From: a virus
Reading direction: 5' to 3' (one strand)
IMG/VR virus record: IMGVR_UViG_3300025276_000024
Coordinates: 1-64,000 of that record
DNA: 64,000 bases
Below are positions 1-64,000 of the stretch, piece after piece. Every line of letters starts with the position of its first letter. Position 1 is the first letter of the stretch. The notes beneath the pieces are model-generated. The model was given only the letters and a program-made list of their open reading frames with translations. It searched no databases and was not told where the DNA came from. The position numbers and the translations under genes were made by a program.

Positions 1-285
1 GCTTTAATTAGTGGTAGACACTAGAGTGATCAATCCCTAGTGTCATTGTAGTCATAAGATATACCGCCAAGTGTTACTACTTAAACCAAACCTTGACACG
101 GTGTAATAAATGAGTTTAGATTACTGTAAGTTCTCTCTTACGCCAACAGCTTATTGGATAGACTCAACCATATTTAGAGTGGTATTTAATCCGTTGCCAC
201 TATTTATTAAGATTACGGGTAATATGTCTATTATCCTATAGAGGAAGAGACAAAGACTACCCTTGTTGTATTGTTGTGTGTATTT

Positions 286-495
286 GTTACTCTTGTAGTA
301 ACGTTAGCTATATTTATATTATTAGTAACACTCATAGTTACAAGAGTGGTAAAAGGTGGTATTTTGTGGGTATATGACCTCCCACTCAGTGTGACACACC
401 TAAATAAAATAAAATAACCACAATAATTATAGTTATTAGTAACATTCCTGACTATATGTAACAATAGTTAGAAGTTATTAGTTTGTTTAAGTAAC
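286..495. repeat. Cluster of GTAAC/GTTAC pentamers
   Basis: Seven copies of GTAAC or its complement GTTAC occur within 210 bases: 286-290, 298-302, 325-329, 337-341, 439-443, 458-462 and 491-495, with an eighth at 73-77. Four are arranged as two inverted pairs (286/298 and 325/337). By rough base-frequency reasoning about one would be expected in 600 bases. Such clusters can be binding sites for an initiator or a regulator. No binding protein is identified. Confidence 0.45.
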
Positions 496-533
496 ATATT
501 CCACAATGGCTCTCATTGTTTAGGAATATGCTA
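491..533. other. Large imperfect hairpin
   Basis: CATATTCC (495-502) pairs with GGAATATG (523-530). Inside it ACAATG (503-508) pairs with CATTGT (514-519), leaving a GCTCT loop and a TTA bulge on the right arm. Outside, GTA (491-493) can pair with TAC (531-533) across one mismatch. The total is about 17 base pairs. No T-tract follows on either side, so it does not look like an ordinary terminator. It could be part of a structured RNA or a protein-binding cruciform. Confidence 0.55.
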
Positions 534-550
534 CATTAAACCTGCTAAAC

Positions 551-582
551 ATAGTTAGGGAGCAGACGTGCTGAAAAGCACG
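551..582 (+). repeat. Motif-plus-hairpin element, copy 1
   Basis: The 16-nt motif ATAGTTAGGGAGCAGA (551-566) is followed without a gap by the hairpin CGTGCT-GAAA-AGCACG (567-582). The same arrangement recurs at 1137 and 1396 with different stem sequences. Read on the plus strand the loop is a GNRA-type GAAA tetraloop. Read on the minus strand it is a hairpin followed by TCTGCTCCCTAA, lying 18 nt beyond the stop of the minus-strand gene at 600-1061. Strand assignment is therefore uncertain. Confidence 0.6.
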
Positions 583-599
583 CCTACAGCCAGACTAGA

Positions 600-1061
600 T
601 TATGCAGTTACAGTCTCCTCCTTGAAGGCCTGCAAGCTCTCTACTGCTTCACCAGTTGAGTTTGCCTCACGAATCTGAGCACCATTTGTGTGTTTCACAA
701 AGGTAGATTGCTCATTGAGGTCATAAACAAGCTCAGTAGTTCTATATATTGCATCATCTCCTGCCATACATACTACGCCTGTGTTACCAGCATACTTAAG
801 ACCATAGGTCAAGTCAGCCTCATTAAGAGGTAGAATTGATTCTTTGACCACAATCTTACCAACAATAGGCTTTGTTAAGTCCATAGAGTTAAGAAGGTCC
901 ATTGGGCCCATTACTAATGCTGACAGAGTCTTATCTGCAAACCAGCCATTCTTGAGCTCAGTTGCCTTTTGCTCAAAGATGATGTATCCTATCTCAGGAT
1001 TCTTGGTCTTGTTGATTGATACTCCTTTGTCATTTACACGTACTGTTACTAAGTTATTCAT
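600..1061 (-). CDS. Conserved-looking small protein of unknown function (153 aa)
   Basis: This is the only minus-strand gene in the window, opposite to all the late genes, as expected for an early gene of a crAss-like phage. The 153-aa product is soluble, with no membrane segment or signal peptide. It has a central AGNTGVVCMAGDDAIYRTTE stretch and a C-terminal acidic tail. The alternating hydrophobic pattern suggests a beta-rich fold. A single-stranded DNA-binding (OB-fold) role is possible from context, but I see no diagnostic motif and do not assign it. The ATG at 1059-1061 follows an A/T-rich leader with no Shine-Dalgarno box. Codons end in C or G more often than in the late genes, which suggests a different expression class or origin. 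Copies of the motif-plus-hairpin element lie on both sides of the gene. Confidence 0.7.
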   Translation of the reverse strand: MNNLVTVRVNDKGVSINKTKNPEIGYIIFEQKATELKNGWFADKTLSALVMGPMDLLNSMDLTKPIVGKIVVKESILPLNEADLTYGLKYAGNTGVVCMAGDDAIYRTTELVYDLNEQSTFVKHTNGAQIREANSTGEAVESLQAFKEETVTA

Positions 1062-1136
1062 AATAAAATTAATTTTGATTAAGACTGTGGTAATACAATC
1101 TCTGAAAGTTTATAAGCACAATTACCTGTGCATTTA

Positions 1137-1168
1137 ATAATTAGGGAGCAGATGCATTGAAAAATGCA
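1137..1168 (+). repeat. Motif-plus-hairpin element, copy 2
   Basis: The motif ATAATTAGGGAGCAGA (1137-1152) runs directly into the hairpin TGCATT-GAAA-AATGCA (1153-1168). Compared with copy 1, the stem sequence differs at most positions but pairing is fully kept and the GAAA loop is identical. That is the signature of a conserved structure. Read on the minus strand it lies about 80 nt upstream of the start of the 600-1061 gene, a plausible promoter distance. Confidence 0.6.
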
Positions 1169-1286
1169 TTATGTGTAGCATGCTGTGTTAGTATATATAC
1201 TAGTAATGAACACAAAACAAATCAATGATGTGTTGATATTTAGTAGTTACCTACGTTGACACAGTAGCACTACACTACTCCACACT

Positions 1287-1319
1287 GATAGATATGCATA
1301 GCCTATCTTTCTTTTTTTT
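1287..1319 (+). terminator. Intrinsic terminator on the plus strand
   Basis: GATAG (1287-1291) pairs with CTATC (1303-1307), with an additional TATGCATA self-complementary core. A T-rich tract follows, TTTCTTTTTTTT (1308-1319). It is oriented to stop plus-strand transcription, yet no plus-strand gene lies upstream in the window. This implies an RNA transcribed rightwards through the leader region. AGATAG just downstream can also pair with CTATCT. Confidence 0.5.
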
Positions 1320-1395
1320 AGATAGACACATTGCATTATCCTACAGTCACAGCCGTGTCCTCACAAAACATGAGGGGGTACCACCGCTGCAAAAA

Positions 1396-1428
1396 ATAAT
1401 TGGGGAGCAGATCATTAGAACCTATTGA
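1396..1428 (+). repeat. Motif-plus-hairpin element, copy 3
   Basis: The motif ATAATTGGGGAGCAGA (1396-1411) is followed at once by TCATTAG-AAC-CTATTGA (1412-1428). Six of seven positions pair, with a single T-T mismatch. The motif differs from copy 2 only at one purine. The loop is AAC rather than GAAA, so this is the weakest hairpin of the three. It lies about 145 nt before the first late gene. Confidence 0.5.
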
Positions 1429-1524
1429 GCACGCAAAACACATAACTTTTGGGAGGGGCAGACTAAAAATTTATATCAGGTGGGGGGCATGTTGTGATAA
1501 AAAAATTTTCATAGGATTTAGAAA

Positions 1525-1545
1525 TTTAGTATATTGTCTTTATAG
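1525..1545 (+). promoter_or_regulatory. Candidate phage-type promoter for the late block
   Basis: TTTAGTATATTGTCTTTATAG matches the recurring late motif TTTGTATATTAT followed by TATAG, seen also at 18503, 20195, 31617 and 49607. It ends 26 nt before the ATG of the first plus-strand gene and has two changes from the consensus. Confidence 0.45.
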
Positions 1546-1571
1546 AAGAGTTACTAACTTAATATTATAAC

Positions 1572-1889
1572 ATGGCTGAATGGGATGACAATAACGAAGC
1601 AGAAGGTTTATCTGAGGTACAACAAATGCAGTTAGATGAAATTTTACTTGACACAGCATATAACAATGCGTGGATGTTATTGTCCGGTGAACTTACATTT
1701 GATGAATTAATGATGACACAGTTTAAAACTGGAAAAGAATTAATAATGGCTTTTGATCCTGACAATGGTCCAAAGGAGGCCGAATTTCAGAACATGATAG
1801 ATTATTATGTTGAACATGAAGAATATGAAAAGTGTGCTAGATTAAGAGACTTAATGGTAGTGGCTTTTCCAAATATATATGAAGCATAA
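1572..1889 (+). CDS. Small acidic protein with UVR-like C-terminal motif
   Basis: This 105-aa acidic protein is the first gene of the rightward block. Its C-terminal third, EEYEKCARLRDLM (about residues 84-96), resembles the UVR motif found in UvrB, UvrC and ClpC-like proteins, a short helical hairpin used for protein-protein contacts. The rest is unrecognised and largely helical. The start is an ATG in an A/T leader (TATTATAACATGG). The next gene begins 5 nt after the stop, so they are co-transcribed. The function is unknown; the UVR resemblance is weak and covers only about 15 residues. Confidence 0.75.
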   Translation: MAEWDDNNEAEGLSEVQQMQLDEILLDTAYNNAWMLLSGELTFDELMMTQFKTGKELIMAFDPDNGPKEAEFQNMIDYYVEHEEYEKCARLRDLMVVAFPNIYEA

Positions 1890-55403: not shown

Positions 55404-58400
55404 ATGGCAACATACGTTAAAGGAGTAGAAACATACTTACCAGATATTAAACCGTTTACACCGGATTATAAATTCTTGTCTGCAGTTTTAGAGACTAGAA
55501 CAGATAAGTATGATAGAAACTATAAAGCTACAAATGACTTATATAATAAAGTTGTTTATGCAGACTTAGCAAGAGAAGATACTAAAGAAAGAAGGGATCA
55601 ATATGCAGAACAAATTGCTCCTAACATTGAACAAATATCAGGATTAGATTTATCATTGCAATCAAATGTTGATGCAGCTAAAGGTGTGTTTGCCCCTTTC
55701 TATGACGATGATATGACTGTAAGAGATATGGTATATACCTCAAGGTTTAGAGACCAGAATAGGCAAGCACAGAACTTATTAAATTCTCCTGACCAAACTG
55801 TACAAGATCAGTATTGGGAAGTTGGTAAACGAGCTATGCAATATCAAATGGATGAGTTTATTAATGCTGATCCAGATAAAGCTATGTCTATGAGGTTACC
55901 AGAGTTTGTTCCTCAAGCTAACTTATTTAAGATGAGTCAACAGTTGTTAGAAAACATGGACCCACCTCTTAAAATGAAGATGGATAGATTTGCTAAAGTT
56001 GCAAATCCTAATTTTAATCCAAATCAAGATGTATCAAAATCAAACCCAAAAGAAATAGCAAATACTGATTGGGTTATTACTGAGCAAAATGGTTCTTTAG
56101 TAACTGGTGCTGCATTACAAACAATACGAGCAAGTTTAATTGATAATGCTGGAGTACAAAAAGCATATCAGACTGAGGCTTATGTAAAAAGTATGGACTG
56201 GGCTACACAAGCTGTAGAAAGCGGAAGTGCAGGTTCACTTGCTAATGGTCAAGAAATGTGGGCAACTGAAACTGTTAGAAGAATAGAAGCAGTAAATCAA
56301 TATAAATTAAATAATGATTTAAAGAGTTTAGAAAAAGCAGAAAAAGCTGCAGTAACATGGGCAAATTATAAAGGTGGTAAAGGTCTTGTACCTGGTAGTC
56401 AATTAGATAACTTAGATAAAGAACAATTATCTGATATAGAAAAATATAAATTAGATATTGAAGCTAAGAAAAGAATAGCTAATGAGGCCGTATTACCTTC
56501 TCCAACAAATCAGAACCTATTAAATAAAGCATATAGTTTATATATGCAAAGCAATATTTTAAATGATATGCAAGAGTCTGCACAATCATGGAGTGCTAGA
56601 GACTACATATATGAAATGAATCCTAATGAGTTTGCTCTTAAAGAAAAACAGTTTAAGTACAACATGGCTGAAATTTCAGCACGTAGTACTAATGCTTTTA
56701 ATCAAGCAAAGTATAATGCAGATAGAAAAGATAATAATACTTTATTAGATAAAGGCTACCAATATGATGACGCAGGTAATTTGGTGAAAATGCCTTGGGC
56801 TGAAGGTGGTGGTGGAGCAAATAGTGGTTTAGGAGCTTTCCTTAATCAAGGAGGAGTAACTATTGGTGATGCTAATACAATTGAAGGAGCGGTAGATAAG
56901 GACGGAGATGTTTCTCCAAATTCAGATATTATGGAAACAGCTAAAGCTGACCATGGTCTTCATATGCAAAATGTAGGTAGAGAGCAAATTTCTATGTTGT
57001 TAGGTTCAACGGGACAAGTGGGTATGTTACAACAGCTTAATCCTAAAGGAAATACTGGTGATGATAATCAAAGGTTTAGAATTAATTTAGGAGGTAGAGA
57101 AGTTGTAGGTGATTTACAGGAAATAAGAAAAGAACTTTCACAACCTATGAATAGAGATGGTTCCGGTGGTTTAAAATATCTTAATGATATTAAAAACTTG
57201 TATACAGAGCAACAACTTCTTTTTAATGATACAAGACAAGTAACTAAAGATAATATAGAAACTACACAAGGTGATGCTAATCAAAGGACACAATATGATG
57301 ATCTATATGATTTGATGTCAGGACCTAATGGTACTAATATAAAAATGAAAGCTGGTGATGTATTTATAAAAGAAGCATATAAGACATATAAACAAGCCTT
57401 TGATCAAAATCAAATATTAGAAACAGCAAGAAAAGATAGTGACATAAGAGGGTTTATGGATGCAGGAATGCCAACTCTTTTTGCTGAAGGATCAAACATG
57501 CCTTACAGTCTAAAAGAATATCAAGATGCAGTTATAGAAGGAGTTAAAAACGGTACTATAAAAAACTATGATGAATGGGGATGGGATATTGGTACAAGTG
57601 AAAGAAACTATTTAATTCCACTAAGGGAAAAGGTACAAGGGAAACCAAGTACTAGTATTTCACCAACAACTGGTGTAGTTACCACATCAGATGGTTCATA
57701 TATGAGAGATGTATTTGAAGCAGATGGTGTTACTCCAGTAATGACTGTAGATGTCAGAGCTATTAGAGCTGAGGCAAAACAAGTATATGATGAATTAAAG
57801 ACTAATCTTAATGCTGCACTTACAGATCAAAAAGATGCTAATACAAATTCAGCTTCTTTTAATTCTATTAAGTATGGTATAGAGGGTGGATACGCAGATG
57901 TCATTAGTAATTTTACATATAACTATACTGTTAATCCGTTATCACGGGATGCTGATAGTGAAAATGAAGTTATCAATTTTGTAGGACAAATGAGAGATAT
58001 GGATTCTAAAGGTTTACCATATGGAATAGGCGTAGGTAAATTAGGTAATGTAGGTGAGTTAACAGAAAAAGATCCATTAGCTATTAAGGTTAGGGATAGA
58101 TTGATGAAAGATCTTCAAACTTGGATTAATAACCCTAAGAGATCTAACACTGCAGCAATTGCTCCTATATTTAATTTAGCTTACAAGCCTGTTTTTGGTA
58201 GAGCAAAAGAAGCTAATAAAGTTCATGCTGGTTATGAAGTTGGTAATATAGATGCTTGGCTTGCATCATATGTAAAAGGCGGAGTCAATGATGAGTATGG
58301 TGTATTTTCCAGGGATGATTTAAAAAGGCTTAAGGGTATTGGTGATGATAATGAAGGTTCAGGTATATTTGTTGTATTTGATCAAGAGTATGATTTAAAT

Positions 58401-58786: not shown

Positions 58787-61700
58787 ATGGAAAACGAATC
58801 TAAAGGCCCTTTATCAGAGGAAATAGTATCACAACAAAGACCTGCCCCAAGTATTATACCTGAAGGGCAGTTCCGCTTTGAACCAATTGCTGATTTGTTT
58901 GAAACTCCTGAAACTAACTTTAATGATCTATTAATGAGTGGACCATTAGCTGCTGATGAAATATCAGGTGTTAATGAATATAAAGCTGATATAGATAAGT
59001 ATGGTATAAGTGCTATGGCTTCTTTAGGTGTAGGTGTTCCAAGTTTTGCAACTGATACATATAATCCAATTGCTCAGGATCAACCTGATAAGAGTACATT
59101 TTCTAAAATGCAAGAGCTTTCTACTCTGCCAAATGCACCCGTGTCTACTAATAGATTAGCTCCTGTGTTTTCAGGAATGAGACAAACTCAATTTTTGAGA
59201 TATTATAATCATCCTGAATTTGATAAGTTAGGTTTTTCACCATATGCAAATATGGAGAACTTTTATAATGAGAATTCTACTATATGGGATGATATGGAAA
59301 GAATGAGAGGACAATGGTTTTCTCTAGCCGGTACTGGATTAAATTCTGTATATGGATCACTTACAAGTGGTACTGATTACCTAGAACCAGACTTAGCTTC
59401 TGCTTCAGAATTTGAAGATATAATGGCAATCTCTTCTTCTACTAGAGGTGGAGTAGGTGGTTTCATTAATAACTTAGCTGCTAACTCTGCATACACAGGG
59501 GGTATACTTGCATCAATAGCAATTGAAGAAGTAATACTTGCAGGAGCAGCAGCATTACAAGGTGGTATGAATCCTGTTTCTGATGCAGCTCTTATAGCAA
59601 GAACCGCTAAGAATACAGTAACAGGTACAAAAGCTCTTTATAGTTTTACAAAATTATTTGAGAGAACAAGAAAGATATTACAAAAAGCTAAAGAATTAGA
59701 AACAGCAAGAGATTTTTTTACTGCTGTAAAATCAGGAGGTAAAATGTCACTTAATCTATTAGGTAAAGGATTTACACCTAATACAGTAAAGGCATTTAGA
59801 AATATTAAGACTGCTGAAAATGCTGGTCAGAATATGTCTAATCTAGCTAAGATGTCTACTAAGTTTGGTGGATTTTATAGAGACCTTAGAGCAGTTAATT
59901 TAGCAATGGCTGAATCTAAACTTGAAGCAGGAATGGTTTACAACCAGGTAATGAGACAAGGTTTAACAGAGGCATCTAATAAAAATATGGGTAAAGGACC
60001 CGGAGAAGATTTTGAAGGAGATATAGCCAATGCAGCAAACAATGCATCATTCAAAGCTATGTTAGCTAATGCACCTTTAATTTATGCAAGTAACTGGTTT
60101 GTTATTGGTAATGCATTAGGTGGTTTTCAAAGAGGAATACAAAGAACATTAGGTAATACATTTCAAAAAGGTTTTGCTAAAAATATAGTTAATACTGCAG
60201 GTAAGAAAGTAGTAAACTCTGCTGGTGAATTAATTAAAAGCCCATTTAAATATGTAGGCAATAGCTTTTCAAACATGTGGGGTAAGGTTAAAGCTGGTGG
60301 CTTTAAAGGTCTTACCGGTGCAGGTAGTATAGCAATGCTTGATTATTTTGCTGCTAACGTTGCAGAAGGTATACAAGAGATTGGACAGGAAGCTATCTCA
60401 GCAGCAACTGTAGGTTACTATACTGAAATACTAGATAATCCTGCACAAGGAGGTATTGATTTAAGAAATCAAATGATAATGTCTGCAATGGGTGATCAGT
60501 TTTCTGCTGAAGGAGCCAATGTATTTTTATCTGGTTTTCTTATGGGTGGATTAGTATCTGGTCCACAAAAATTATTCTTTCAAGGTGTACCTTCTATATA
60601 TAATTATGGGCTTCAGCAAGCTGGTATTGGTTTAGCATCTAAGTCTCAAAAAGAAGCATACGCAGAATACAAGAAGAACAGAGAGGAAATGATTGATGAG
60701 GTTGTGAAATCTTATAATAAATCATGGGATACTCAAGCATATGACCCTTCAGACTTATTTGATCTTACAAGAATGAACTTTATGGTTCAAAAGGAAGCAG
60801 CAGAAAGTATCAGAAAGAATGTATTTAGCCAAGACAGGTTCGGTGTTATAGATGCAAAAGATGCATCTAAATTTTCACAGTATAATTATATGTTTGCTAC
60901 AGGAGGATCAGCTAATTTTAAAAATCAATTACAAGGATTTCTAGAATTATCAGATGAAGAACTCATACAAGCATTTCCTAATGTATCTAAACAAGATAAA
61001 CAATCTGGAAAGTTAAGAGAACGTATTACTAGTATGATGACTAGTATGGATAAAATTGAAGATTCCTATAATAGGAATAAAGATAAAAATGTAAACCCAT
61101 TTAATAAAAATAAGTACAATAGAAAGACTCAAGAAACAGAATATATTGCTGAAGCATTAAATCAATATGCATATGATCATGTGCGTTATTTACAAATGTT
61201 TACTGAGAACGGTTTTAACAGAGCGTTAGAAAGAGCAGATGGTATTTATTCTATATTAGAATCTGAACCATTATTTAAAGGCATGTCTGCTAATGATATA
61301 ACAGTTTTACTAGACTCAGATTCAATAGAGAAAGAAATATCAATGCTTCAACAACAAATTGCAGCTACTGAAGGTGCTGACAAAGGTCTTGGAGAAAGCA
61401 ATAAAACCAAAAGACAAAAAATTAAAAGGTTGACAGCAATGTATAAGATTGTTACTGACCCACAAAATAGATTTAAGAATGGAACCTTTAAAAGAAATAA
61501 ACTTTTAAAAGGAAAACTAAGAAGTGAATTTAAAAATTATGTAAGATTCATGGCATCTAGTAAAGGTGAATTTGTATCTGAAGATAAAATAGATACAGCA
61601 CTTGAACAGATAGTTGATTATGGTGCTCTTAAAGGTAGAGCAAGGGTATATGATAAAGCCATTCAGTATTTACAGAATCCTGAAAAGTTTGCTGAGATAC

Positions 61701-64000
61701 AACAAAGACAGTATGAAGTAAATAAAGTTATATATGGTAAGAGAGCTGAGATTACTAGAAGATCTGTAGAGAAGTATACAGAAGTAGTTGAAGCCAATGA
61801 GTTTGTAAACCAATTGGCTAAAGAAGGAATATTTGCTGACATTGGTGAAATGGAAATGTTTTTAAAAACAGGAAATATTAATTTCTTACAAACATTTTAT
61901 GATGATAATGGTTTGATAAATCCTGCTGTGCATGAAATTAAACATGGCATGATTCAAAGGCTAATTGGAGATTGGAAAAGTACTAGAAAAGATGTTAAGC
62001 CAGAAGAAGAAAAATCTGAGGAAGAGGCAGCTGTAGAACAAACAGAAGACTCAAGAAATAAATTAGATACACTATTAGATAAAGCAGGTATTACAATTGA
62101 TATTGATACTACAACTAATAGCCCATTAGTTGTTAAAGCATTAAAGAAAAACTATGCTTTATATAGAGCTAGACAAACTAGACTAGGTCTACCTATTTTA
62201 GATAGTGTTGAATGGGCTAATTCAGCTGAAGCATTAGATGTTAGGAATACAGTAAATGCACTAAAAAGAATTTGGGCATCAGGTGAGGCATCTGTGAATA
62301 GTGCAGATGGAACTTTAATATTTAATAATCCAAAAGAGTCAGATATAATTAATGGTGATATTGGATTTGAGGAATTTTTACAAGATTCAGAAGTTTTAAT
62401 TAATAATCCTTTGGTTCAAAGTGTTTTAAATCAAAGTACATTAGATCTATCTAATATAGTTTCAATGGCTGAAACAGAGTTAGAAGAAGGTGAATCTTTA
62501 CCAGATACTCCACAAAGACAATTCTATAAAGGAGGCCTTGCTGGAGATATATATAAAATAACAACTTTTGATAAAACTAATAACACTACAGATGTATCAT
62601 ATCAAATTTTAGATAAATCAGGTAACCCATTATCAAAAGAGTATTTAGATTTTCTAGATGACAACTTTGCATCTGTACAGGGTACTTTTCTAGAGAAAGA
62701 AGCACAGATAGCAAAAGATGCATTAGATGCCTTAGATGAGACTATGCCAGATACAACAGAGTTTTCTTTTGATGGTGTTGGTGGTTTAACATATGGTCAG
62801 CCTGTCTATAAAGGAAGTGTTAAATATATAGTAGTTCAGAAGCCTCAGTATTCAAATAGATTTGGAGATAACCAAAAACTTAAAGTTATTAAAGAGTCTG
62901 AAAATGTTGGACCAATATCAGAAAGAAAGTTTGAATTTATTGAACAAGGTGATTTTGCTAACAACTTTACTGTTGAAGAAACAACGTTTAATTTATTACC
63001 TGATTCTGTTACTAAGATTCAAATAAAAGATCTAACAACTTTATATCCTCATACAAACTATACTGAGCTAGGTGCTGGAGAAAATTCAATAGCAAGGGAA
63101 AGTGCTATACGTAGTGATAACCTAAAGGCTAAAGATAGATTTAATATGATATTGTCTGAACTAAGCCCTAGTGAAATTGAAGGTTTAGAATTTGTGGTGT
63201 CATTAGATCCTAATGGAGGTAATGTAAGGGGAGCTTATACAGCAAAAAATAGAGATGGTAAAATATATAAAGAAGCAAATCCATTAATTGATGCACGTAC
63301 TAGTAAGTATATTATAGGTGTGAGAATTGCTAATCCAAAATTAAGGGCTGATATAAACAATAAGCTTATTGATAGTGGGATGGAAATTTCTAATAGCCCA
63401 GAAGAAGTATTTGCATATTTAAATAATGAAGCTTTTATAATTAGAGATCAACGTACAGGAAAAGAAATTGATCCTAGATCAATGAATAATGAGCAAGCAA
63501 GTAATGTTATATTACAACCAAATAAAAACTTGACACTTGAAGAAAAACAAGCGGCTCTTAGCAAAGTACAAAATGACTTTGCATTAAATGCATTAATAGT
63601 TCAATCATTTGATAAACTAGATATAGGTAGTACACCTCAATACTTTGTAGCAGGTAGTAAAGAATTACCTTTTACAATTGACCTTACAGCTGGGGGTGGT
63701 AAAGTTGCTTATGCAAAATCAAGAGAAAGGGTTTATCCTATTCCAATGGATGCATTACAATATGATACAGCAGACAGTGAAGGTAATTTATTTGTTTTTA
63801 ATTTAAAATATAATAAAGAAACAGGGCAAAGAGACTATGACTTTACTACAAATCTAAAAGGTGCTGAGAGAGATGCACTTGAAGATGCTGTTGAGTTACA
63901 ACTTAAAAAGCAAAATCAATGGGATAATCTATTACGTGCTGGTAAAGGTACTGATAGATATCTTGCTATGGTTAGATTACCTAATGGTACATTTGCCAAA
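58787..64000 (+). CDS. Giant virion protein, 3' end cut by the window (at least 1738 aa)
   Basis: An ATG at 58787 opens a frame that appears to run to the last base, at least 1738 codons. The N-terminus starts MENESKGPLSEEIVSQQRPA. The region SGMRQTQFLRYYNHPEFDKL and IWDDMERMRGQWFSLAGTGL resembles giant internal proteins of crAss-like phages. Hydrophobic stretches lie near residues 230-255 (GILASIAIEEVILAGAAALQ) and near 430. In crAss-like genomes this position is held by giant proteins that include the virion RNA polymerase. I did not see its DxDGD active-site motif in the part I read, so the polymerase identity is only a possibility. It starts 11 nt after the preceding stop. Confidence 0.7.
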   Translation, partial: MENESKGPLSEEIVSQQRPAPSIIPEGQFRFEPIADLFETPETNFNDLLMSGPLAADEISGVNEYKADIDKYGISAMASLGVGVPSFATDTYNPIAQDQPDKSTFSKMQELSTLPNAPVSTNRLAPVFSGMRQTQFLRYYNHPEFDKLGFSPYANMENFYNENSTIWDDMERMRGQWFSLAGTGLNSVYGSLTSGTDYLEPDLASASEFEDIMAISSSTRGGVGGFINNLAANSAYTGGILASIAIEEVILAGAAALQGGMNPVSDAALIARTAKNTVTGTKALYSFTKLFERTRKILQKAKELETARDFFTAVKSGGKMSLNLLGKGFTPNTVKAFRNIKTAENAGQNMSNLAKMSTKFGGFYRDLRAVNLAMAESKLEAGMVYNQVMRQGLTEASNKNMGKGPGEDFEGDIANAANNASFKAMLANAPLIYASNWFVIGNALGGFQRGIQRTLGNTFQKGFAKNIVNTAGKKVVNSAGELIKSPFKYVGNSFSNMWGKVKAGGFKGLTGAGSIAMLDYFAANVAEGIQEIGQEAISAATVGYYTEILDNPAQGGIDLRNQMIMSAMGDQFSAEGANVFLSGFLMGGLVSGPQKLFFQGVPSIYNYGLQQAGIGLASKSQKEAYAEYKKNREEMIDEVVKSYNKSWDTQAYDPSDLFDLTRMNFMVQKEAAESIRKNVFSQDRFGVIDAKDASKFSQYNYMFATGGSANFKNQLQGFLELSDEELIQAFPNVSKQDKQSGKLRERITSMMTSMDKIEDSYNRNKDKNVNPFNKNKYNRKTQETEYIAEALNQYAYDHVRYLQMFTENGFNRALERADGIYSILESEPLFKGMSANDITVLLDSDSIEKEISMLQQQIAATEGADKGLGESNKTKRQKIKRLTAMYKIVTDPQNRFKNGTFKRNKLLKGKLRSEFKNYVRFMASSKGEFVSEDKIDTALEQIVDYGALKGRARVYDKAIQYLQNPEKFAEIQQRQYEVNKVIYGKRAEITRRSVEKYTEVVEANEFVNQLAKEGIFADIGEMEMFLKTGNINFLQTFYDDNGLINPAVHEIKHGMIQRLIGDWKSTRKDVKPEEEKSEEEAAVEQTEDSRNKLDTLLDKAGITIDIDTTTNSPLVVKALKKNYALYRARQTRLGLPILDSVEWANSAEALDVRNTVNALKRIWASGEASVNSADGTLIFNNPKESDIINGDIGFEEFLQDSEVLINNPLVQSVLNQSTLDLSNIVSMAETELEEGESLPDTPQRQFYKGGLAGDIYKITTFDKTNNTTDVSYQILDKSGNPLSKEYLDFLDDNFASVQGTFLEKEAQIAKDALDALDETMPDTTEFSFDGVGGLTYGQPVYKGSVKYIVVQKPQYSNRFGDNQKLKVIKESENVGPISERKFEFIEQGDFANNFTVEETTFNLLPDSVTKIQIKDLTTLYPHTNYTELGAGENSIARESAIRSDNLKAKDRFNMILSELSPSEIEGLEFVVSLDPNGGNVRGAYTAKNRDGKIYKEANPLIDARTSKYIIGVRIANPKLRADINNKLIDSGMEISNSPEEVFAYLNNEAFIIRDQRTGKEIDPRSMNNEQASNVILQPNKNLTLEEKQAALSKVQNDFALNALIVQSFDKLDIGSTPQYFVAGSKELPFTIDLTAGGGKVAYAKSRERVYPIPMDALQYDTADSEGNLFVFNLKYNKETGQRDYDFTTNLKGAERDALEDAVELQLKKQNQWDNLLRAGKGTDRYLAMVRLPNGTFAK

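Follow-up and report, generated by a model that had tools for sequence, protein, structure and literature searches.

The question raised by this locus is what is served by a short motif that recurs in three copies between two divergent gene modules of an uncultured crAss-like phage. The stretch of DNA analysed, here called the window, comprises the first 64 kb (64,000 nucleotides) of a virus record with a total length of 114,829 bases. The structural genes run rightward from position 1572, and from the opposite end of the record the replication genes extend leftward; the leftward genes include those for a DnaB-like helicase, a DnaG-like primase, a UDG, and an SSB-like protein. The first 1.57 kb between these modules, referred to as the control region, holds a single leftward gene (Table 1). 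The terminase and the portal protein were crAss-like, yet far from those of every named phage; the best match of the portal among named phages was 31%, to Leptolyngbya phage Lbo-JY46, and no close DNA relatives were found among the named phages. It was also noted that a repeat of 210 bp, located at window positions 1-210 and at record positions 114598-114807, one copy at either record end, was 98.6% identical, with the sequences diverging afterwards. Probably the genome is circular or terminally redundant and its join bears a strain variant. The phage also codes for a GroEL-type chaperonin (L071:12398-14032, record 91398-93032) and for both ribonucleotide reductase subunits.

The first-pass annotation had placed the motif at positions 551, 1137, and 1396, and all three occurrences of ATARTTRGGGAGCAGA were exact matches on the plus strand. 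The nonamer GGGAGCAGA was found 3 times in the whole genome, every time in the control region and never on the minus strand, and the three copies scored 27.7 to 35.3 bits with a weight matrix, compared to a best score of 12.2 bits in six random first-order genomes. A weaker fourth match of 17.8 bits at window positions 56964-56988 was located within a coding region and probably arises by chance.

Relatives were gathered via the terminase and via the first rightward gene. Broad pattern scans yielded mostly chance matches in unrelated contigs, and loci were kept only if their neighbour genes were homologous. A scan with the single protein encoded by the leftward gene gave no relatives; these were recovered later through the neighbouring genes. 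From the loci fetched, we defined 2 groups: group A, which consisted of the window, L073, L079, L081, L153-L170, and L187 and represented about 7 to 10 distinct lineages, and its sister group B, which consisted of L009, L092, L094, L129, L141, L151, and others. The order in group A was copy 1, the leftward gene, copy 2, about 259 nt, copy 3, and the rightward genes, and in group B copy 1, a different leftward gene, and copy 3, the leftward genes of the 2 groups belonging to different families.

The relatives contained a common element at the same places, TGCA-N5-TAGYTnGGGAGCAGA, which is about 25 bp long, oriented, and non-palindromic, and which was conserved across 33 distinct copy-1 and copy-2 sequences and 27 distinct copy-3 sequences. 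The first-pass annotation had suggested a search for additional copies ahead of early genes, but none emerged; in this genome and in ten long relatives, three of which were 114 to 116 kb, the element was limited to the one control region, save for scattered one-mismatch matches in two orientations. The element was not present in the examined parts of phi14:2 and Leptolyngbya phage Lbo-JY46.

Table 1. Features of the control region, in window coordinates.
Feature	Position	Strand	Description
Copy 1 of the 25-bp element	542..566	-	plus strand CTGCTAAACATAGTTAGGGAGCAGA; putative leftward start element by the best reading
Copy 1 hairpin	567..582		CGTGCT-GAAA-AGCACG on the plus strand
Gene for 153-aa protein	600..1061	-	39% identical to the SSB-like protein of the same phage; the shorter of the two paralogs
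Leader hairpin N2, leftward mRNA	1081..1102	-	stem GAGATTGT/ACAGTCTT, loop ATTACC
Leader hairpin N1, leftward mRNA	1116..1131	-	stem GCACA/TGTGC, loop GGTAAT, complementary to the N2 loop
Copy 2 of the element	1128..1152	-	plus strand GTGCATTTAATAATTAGGGAGCAGA; minus-strand gene 76 nt further
Copy 2 hairpin	1153..1168		TGCATT-GAAA-AATGCA
Conserved block around copy 3	1374..1458		GGGGGTACC, element, ACCTMTYRAGC-AYGC-AAACACA, AACTTTT, G-run
Copy 3 of the element	1387..1411	-	plus strand CTGCAAAAAATAATTGGGGAGCAGA; no conserved hairpin; first rightward gene 175 nt on

Two other noncoding segments stood out. A second strongly conserved block, which occurs once in the genome, was located to the left of copy 1 at window positions 215-254 (ACGGGTAATATGTCTATTATCCTATAGAGGAAGAGACAAA); its surroundings were 92% identical to L163, and the rest about 74%. 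At window positions 1501-1550, about 35 to 70 nt ahead of the first rightward gene, we observed a conserved AAAAATTTTTATAG..TATATTG..CTTATAGAAG, which is a candidate host-type late promoter. Repeats of GTAAC were considered as iterons and rejected, the control region not being enriched in a genome-wide comparison.

According to the first-pass annotation, every copy of the motif was fused to a hairpin. The perfect 6-bp stems with a GAAA loop described for two of the copies were seen directly after copies 1 and 2, and hairpins adjoining the motif were confined to these two copies and to group A. The stems CGTGCT, TGTGCT, GCCTGT, CGTGCAT, TGCATT, GGCATT, and AGGCATT were all paired, with either GAAA or GGAA in the loop. 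Among 10 distinct copies, all 60 stem cells were paired and 5 of the 6 pairs were changed on both sides; the covariation score was 0.90 versus 0.27 in shuffles, and none of 500 shuffles matched the percentage paired or the score. Judged by this covariation, the claim of a selected structure tied to the repeated motif holds for copies 1 and 2, both of which have a genuine hairpin. The z-scores for RNA folding of copies 1 and 2 were -1.9 and -3.2 on the plus strand, and -5.0 and -2.6 on the minus strand.

The third hairpin was not borne out. Its folding was no better than that of shuffles (z +0.1), and it was not kept across the 27 distinct copy-3 sequences, of which only L143 and L151 had a 5-bp stem there, unrelated to it. 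All 16 distinct copy-1 elements of group B were also without an adjoining hairpin, and conservation of pairing in the relatives thus extends to copies 1 and 2 of group A, but not to copy 3 or to copy 1 of group B. Instead of the hairpin, the latter had a second GAGCAGA-like repeat, usually about 16 to 31 nt downstream (L009, L018, L129, L141, L151, and others). A downstream AGCAGA-like repeat was present in 16 of the 16 distinct elements, with 18 exact AGCAGA matches compared to 0.5 expected from shuffles, and the 40 nt following the element were 69% purine.

The leftward gene provides a reference for the direction of the element. The phage's own SSB-like protein (record 111934-112515), to which the 153-aa protein is paralogous, has an acidic tail ending in EEETFDL. 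An AF2 model of the 153-aa protein with a pLDDT of 83 gave only weak matches to OB folds (PriB, SSB), with a best E-value of 0.07. In a structure comparison, the leftward-gene product of group B matched SSB weakly and, in one clear case, an unnamed protein of Virus NIOZ-UU157. We use SSB-like as a reasoned label for the putative role of the leftward gene product. Copy 2 was described in the first-pass annotation as located about 80 nt upstream of this gene, which agrees with the distance in the window and with the range of 76 to 85 nt (82.2, sd 2.5) in group A. In group B, the distance from copy 3 to the leftward gene was 52 to 69 nt (62.0, sd 3.6).

A structured leader starts 6 nt past copy 2, and the hairpins N1 and N2 lie between copy 2 and the leftward gene. 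The 6-nt loops of N1 and N2 were complementary in 12 of 12 group A sequences, in four compensated versions (GGTAAT/ATTACC, GGCAAT/ATTGCC, CGTAAT/ATTACG, and GATAAG/CTTATC). All 133 cells were paired, 10 of 19 pairs were changed on both sides, and none of 500 shuffles was as good. This pattern strongly supports a leader with kissing hairpins on the mRNA of the leftward SSB-like gene. The wobbles in the leader were G.U in the minus-strand RNA, which indicates that a leftward RNA spans the leader and that its start coincides with copy 2 or lies to the right of it. An Rfam search of window positions 1-1700 gave no family above the gathering threshold, and the best chance matches were far below it. 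At the copy-3 leaders of groups A and B, RNAalifold recovered almost no consensus structure, although single sequences showed outer stems, and a leader structure is therefore claimed for copy 2 only.

Since the oriented element is located directly before leftward leaders, and leftward is the early and replication side, we adopted the reading that it acts as a directional signal at which leftward (minus-strand) transcription of early genes starts. We favour this reading tentatively, at slightly below an even chance. Read leftward, the element is TCTGCTCCC-n-ARCTA-N5-TGCA, and transcription would start inside or just to the right of the motif and continue into the structured leader. The mRNA of the SSB-like gene would be started by copy 2 in group A or by copy 3 in group B, and copy 1 would start the unit that follows leftward, in the direction of the replication genes. 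In group A, the stretch just upstream would extrude the hairpin, with the template (plus) strand bearing a G..A tetraloop, and at copy 1 of group B the second GAGCAGA would occupy the place of the hairpin. The likeliest enzyme would be the phage's own virion RNA polymerase. As would be expected for a promoter of a crAss-like virion RNA polymerase, the element is upstream of early and replication genes, in the right direction, and at a constant spacing before the leftward SSB-like gene. We infer that the motif is the promoter itself and is used by the virion polymerase, with the hairpin aiding opening or recognition.

Several observations fit less well with leftward start elements. In most phages, copy 3 also keeps a constant distance, about 175 nt, to the first rightward gene, and there are only three copies for about 25 kb of leftward genes. 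Copy 1 is about 0.3 to 1 kb away from the next leftward gene, and the block at 215-254 could be the real promoter. Copy 2 could also be a leader element, if the transcript begins further to the right, and the stretch between copies 2 and 3 also folds better as minus-strand RNA, with 31 G.U versus 6 A.C cells.

The same fold is in line with an RNA element on leftward transcripts, in which the hairpin and UCUGCUCCC would form a processing, stability, or protein-binding site and the true promoter would be at copy 3 or elsewhere. One gene is flanked by units of hairpin and motif, as with processing sites, copy 1 of group A is located about 12 to 26 nt past the stop of the SSB-like gene (except in L079), and its stem on the minus strand can be extended to 10 or 11 pairs, into the TCTGC of the motif. 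However, copy 3 is without a hairpin, the element is equally conserved where the structure is absent, and in most group B phages shown the SSB-like gene's own intrinsic terminator lies between the gene and copy 1, which places copy 1 to begin a new unit. We consider an RNA element unlikely. Copy 1 was also rejected as an intrinsic terminator of the minus strand, as there is no U-tract and the hairpin in L079 persists 375 nt away from the gene.

The evidence for the strand on which the hairpin acts was mixed: the extension of the copy-1 stem points to the minus strand, whereas the GAAA and GGAA loops, which are GNRA loops on the plus strand, and a G.T wobble on that strand in L079 point to the plus strand, although such arguments build on few events and this was the sole wobble in the motif hairpins. 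The plus-strand loops speak against leftward start elements and for the other reading in the first-pass annotation, a rightward T7-like transcript start in which an AT-rich segment is followed by a +1 at GGGAGCAGA and by an RNA with a 5' GNRA hairpin. The form resembles TATAGGGAGA; like a T7 class III promoter, the element is oriented and about 23 to 25 bp long, with ATA..GGGAG(C)AGA on the plus strand, but it differs in position and gene direction. Copy 3 alone faces the rightward genes closely, whereas transcription from copies 1 and 2 would read the SSB-like gene in antisense or enter noncoding DNA, and the leader adjoining copy 2 has minus-strand polarity. A T7/N4-type polymerase (PF00940) was absent from seven records, a weak negative as the control genomes also gave no match. 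In cultured Crassvirales, the structural genes are transcribed by the host RNA polymerase (PMC10136315). A T7-like start thus has little in its favour and is, in our judgement, improbable.

A different kind of alternative is that the element serves replication or packaging as a DNA site recognised by an initiator, a primase, or a terminase. It is located between divergent modules, beside the start of the structural genes and next to an SSB-like gene. Large noncoding blocks are conserved around copy 3 and to the left of copy 1, a hairpin or purine-rich DNA would favour opening of the strands, and the contigs of several relatives begin near the copies. However, the region is internal in three relatives of about 115 kb, which gives no evidence of a fixed genome end, spacings of about 600 and 259 bp between copies would be unusual among origin repeats, and the constant distance to gene starts and the directly abutting mRNA leaders suit transcription better. 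We regard a replication or packaging site as rather unlikely.

If the element is a leftward start signal, it invites comparison with the N4 early promoters proposed as a model in the first-pass annotation, in which the 5' G and the 3' A of the loop are required and the start is a +1C (PMC4496689). Like these, the control region has a cluster of sites in the same direction that would serve early genes and an injected polymerase, and, in the leftward reading, a hairpin upstream of the start, a template-strand loop with G..A, and a conserved C 3 nt past the hairpin. SSB activates the N4 promoters, and an SSB-like gene adjoins the motif here. The differences are that the stems of 6 to 7 bp have 4-nt loops, compared to 3-base loops in N4, that a long sequence outside the hairpin is conserved, that the hairpin is missing in copy 3 and in group B, and that the polymerase would be crAss-like (double-psi-barrel) rather than T7-like. 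An N4-type hairpin promoter was rejected on the loop size and on the hairpin-less copies; as the hairpin is dispensable across the clade, the element is at most an N4-like variant. Of the 2 earlier readings, the minus-strand one fits better: its direction is upheld by the spacing, the polarity of the leader, and the replication genes, but its assignment to the N4 type is not, given that the hairpin is often absent.

In studied Crassvirales, a virion RNA polymerase transcribes the early and replication genes and the host RNA polymerase the late ones, a programme that has been likened to that of N4 (PMC10136315). The phage studied here contains an open reading frame of 4639 amino acids (record 58787-72706; covered by window positions 58787-64000 and L070) with ADFDID at residue 3648. 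We take this to be the DFDxD signature reportedly described by Drobysheva and colleagues in 2021, and the product is presumed from it to be a giant virion RNA polymerase. A sequence search of this open reading frame against solved polymerase structures gave no match, and an assignment based on such a short motif counts against the leftward start reading.

Two other systems bear resemblance to the element. On the minus strand, the hairpin beside a linear element similar to GCTC..TAA recalls the lambda nut and rrn boxA-boxB sites. Unlike these, the element is found at putative transcript starts and past a terminator, the hairpin is not constant, and there was no Rfam match above the cut-off; antitermination of the boxA/boxB type was rejected as a resemblance only. 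The vRNAP and nvRNAP promoters of P23-45, mapped by ONT-cappable-seq, are likewise linear motifs without a hairpin, used by phage polymerases of crAss-like structure (PMC10770324). They belong to another phage and another motif, and occur in many copies per genome (14 AT-rich and 7 GC-rich), compared to three here.

At its most specific, the leftward reading would make the element a promoter of a crAss-like virion RNA polymerase, assisted in one subclade by a hairpin on the template strand, and, with a polymerase of an unrelated family, a convergent counterpart of the early promoters of N4, governing an SSB-like gene with a new kissing-loop regulator leader; in this full form, we consider the proposal doubtful. 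The crAss-like phages are very abundant, yet no published promoter of their virion RNA polymerase was found in the literature searched. Separately, the kissing-loop leader is a strongly supported candidate for an RNA that controls the SSB-like gene. The presence of the hairpin in one subclade and its absence in another offers a natural comparison of polymerase recognition by linear DNA, by a hairpin, or by both combined.
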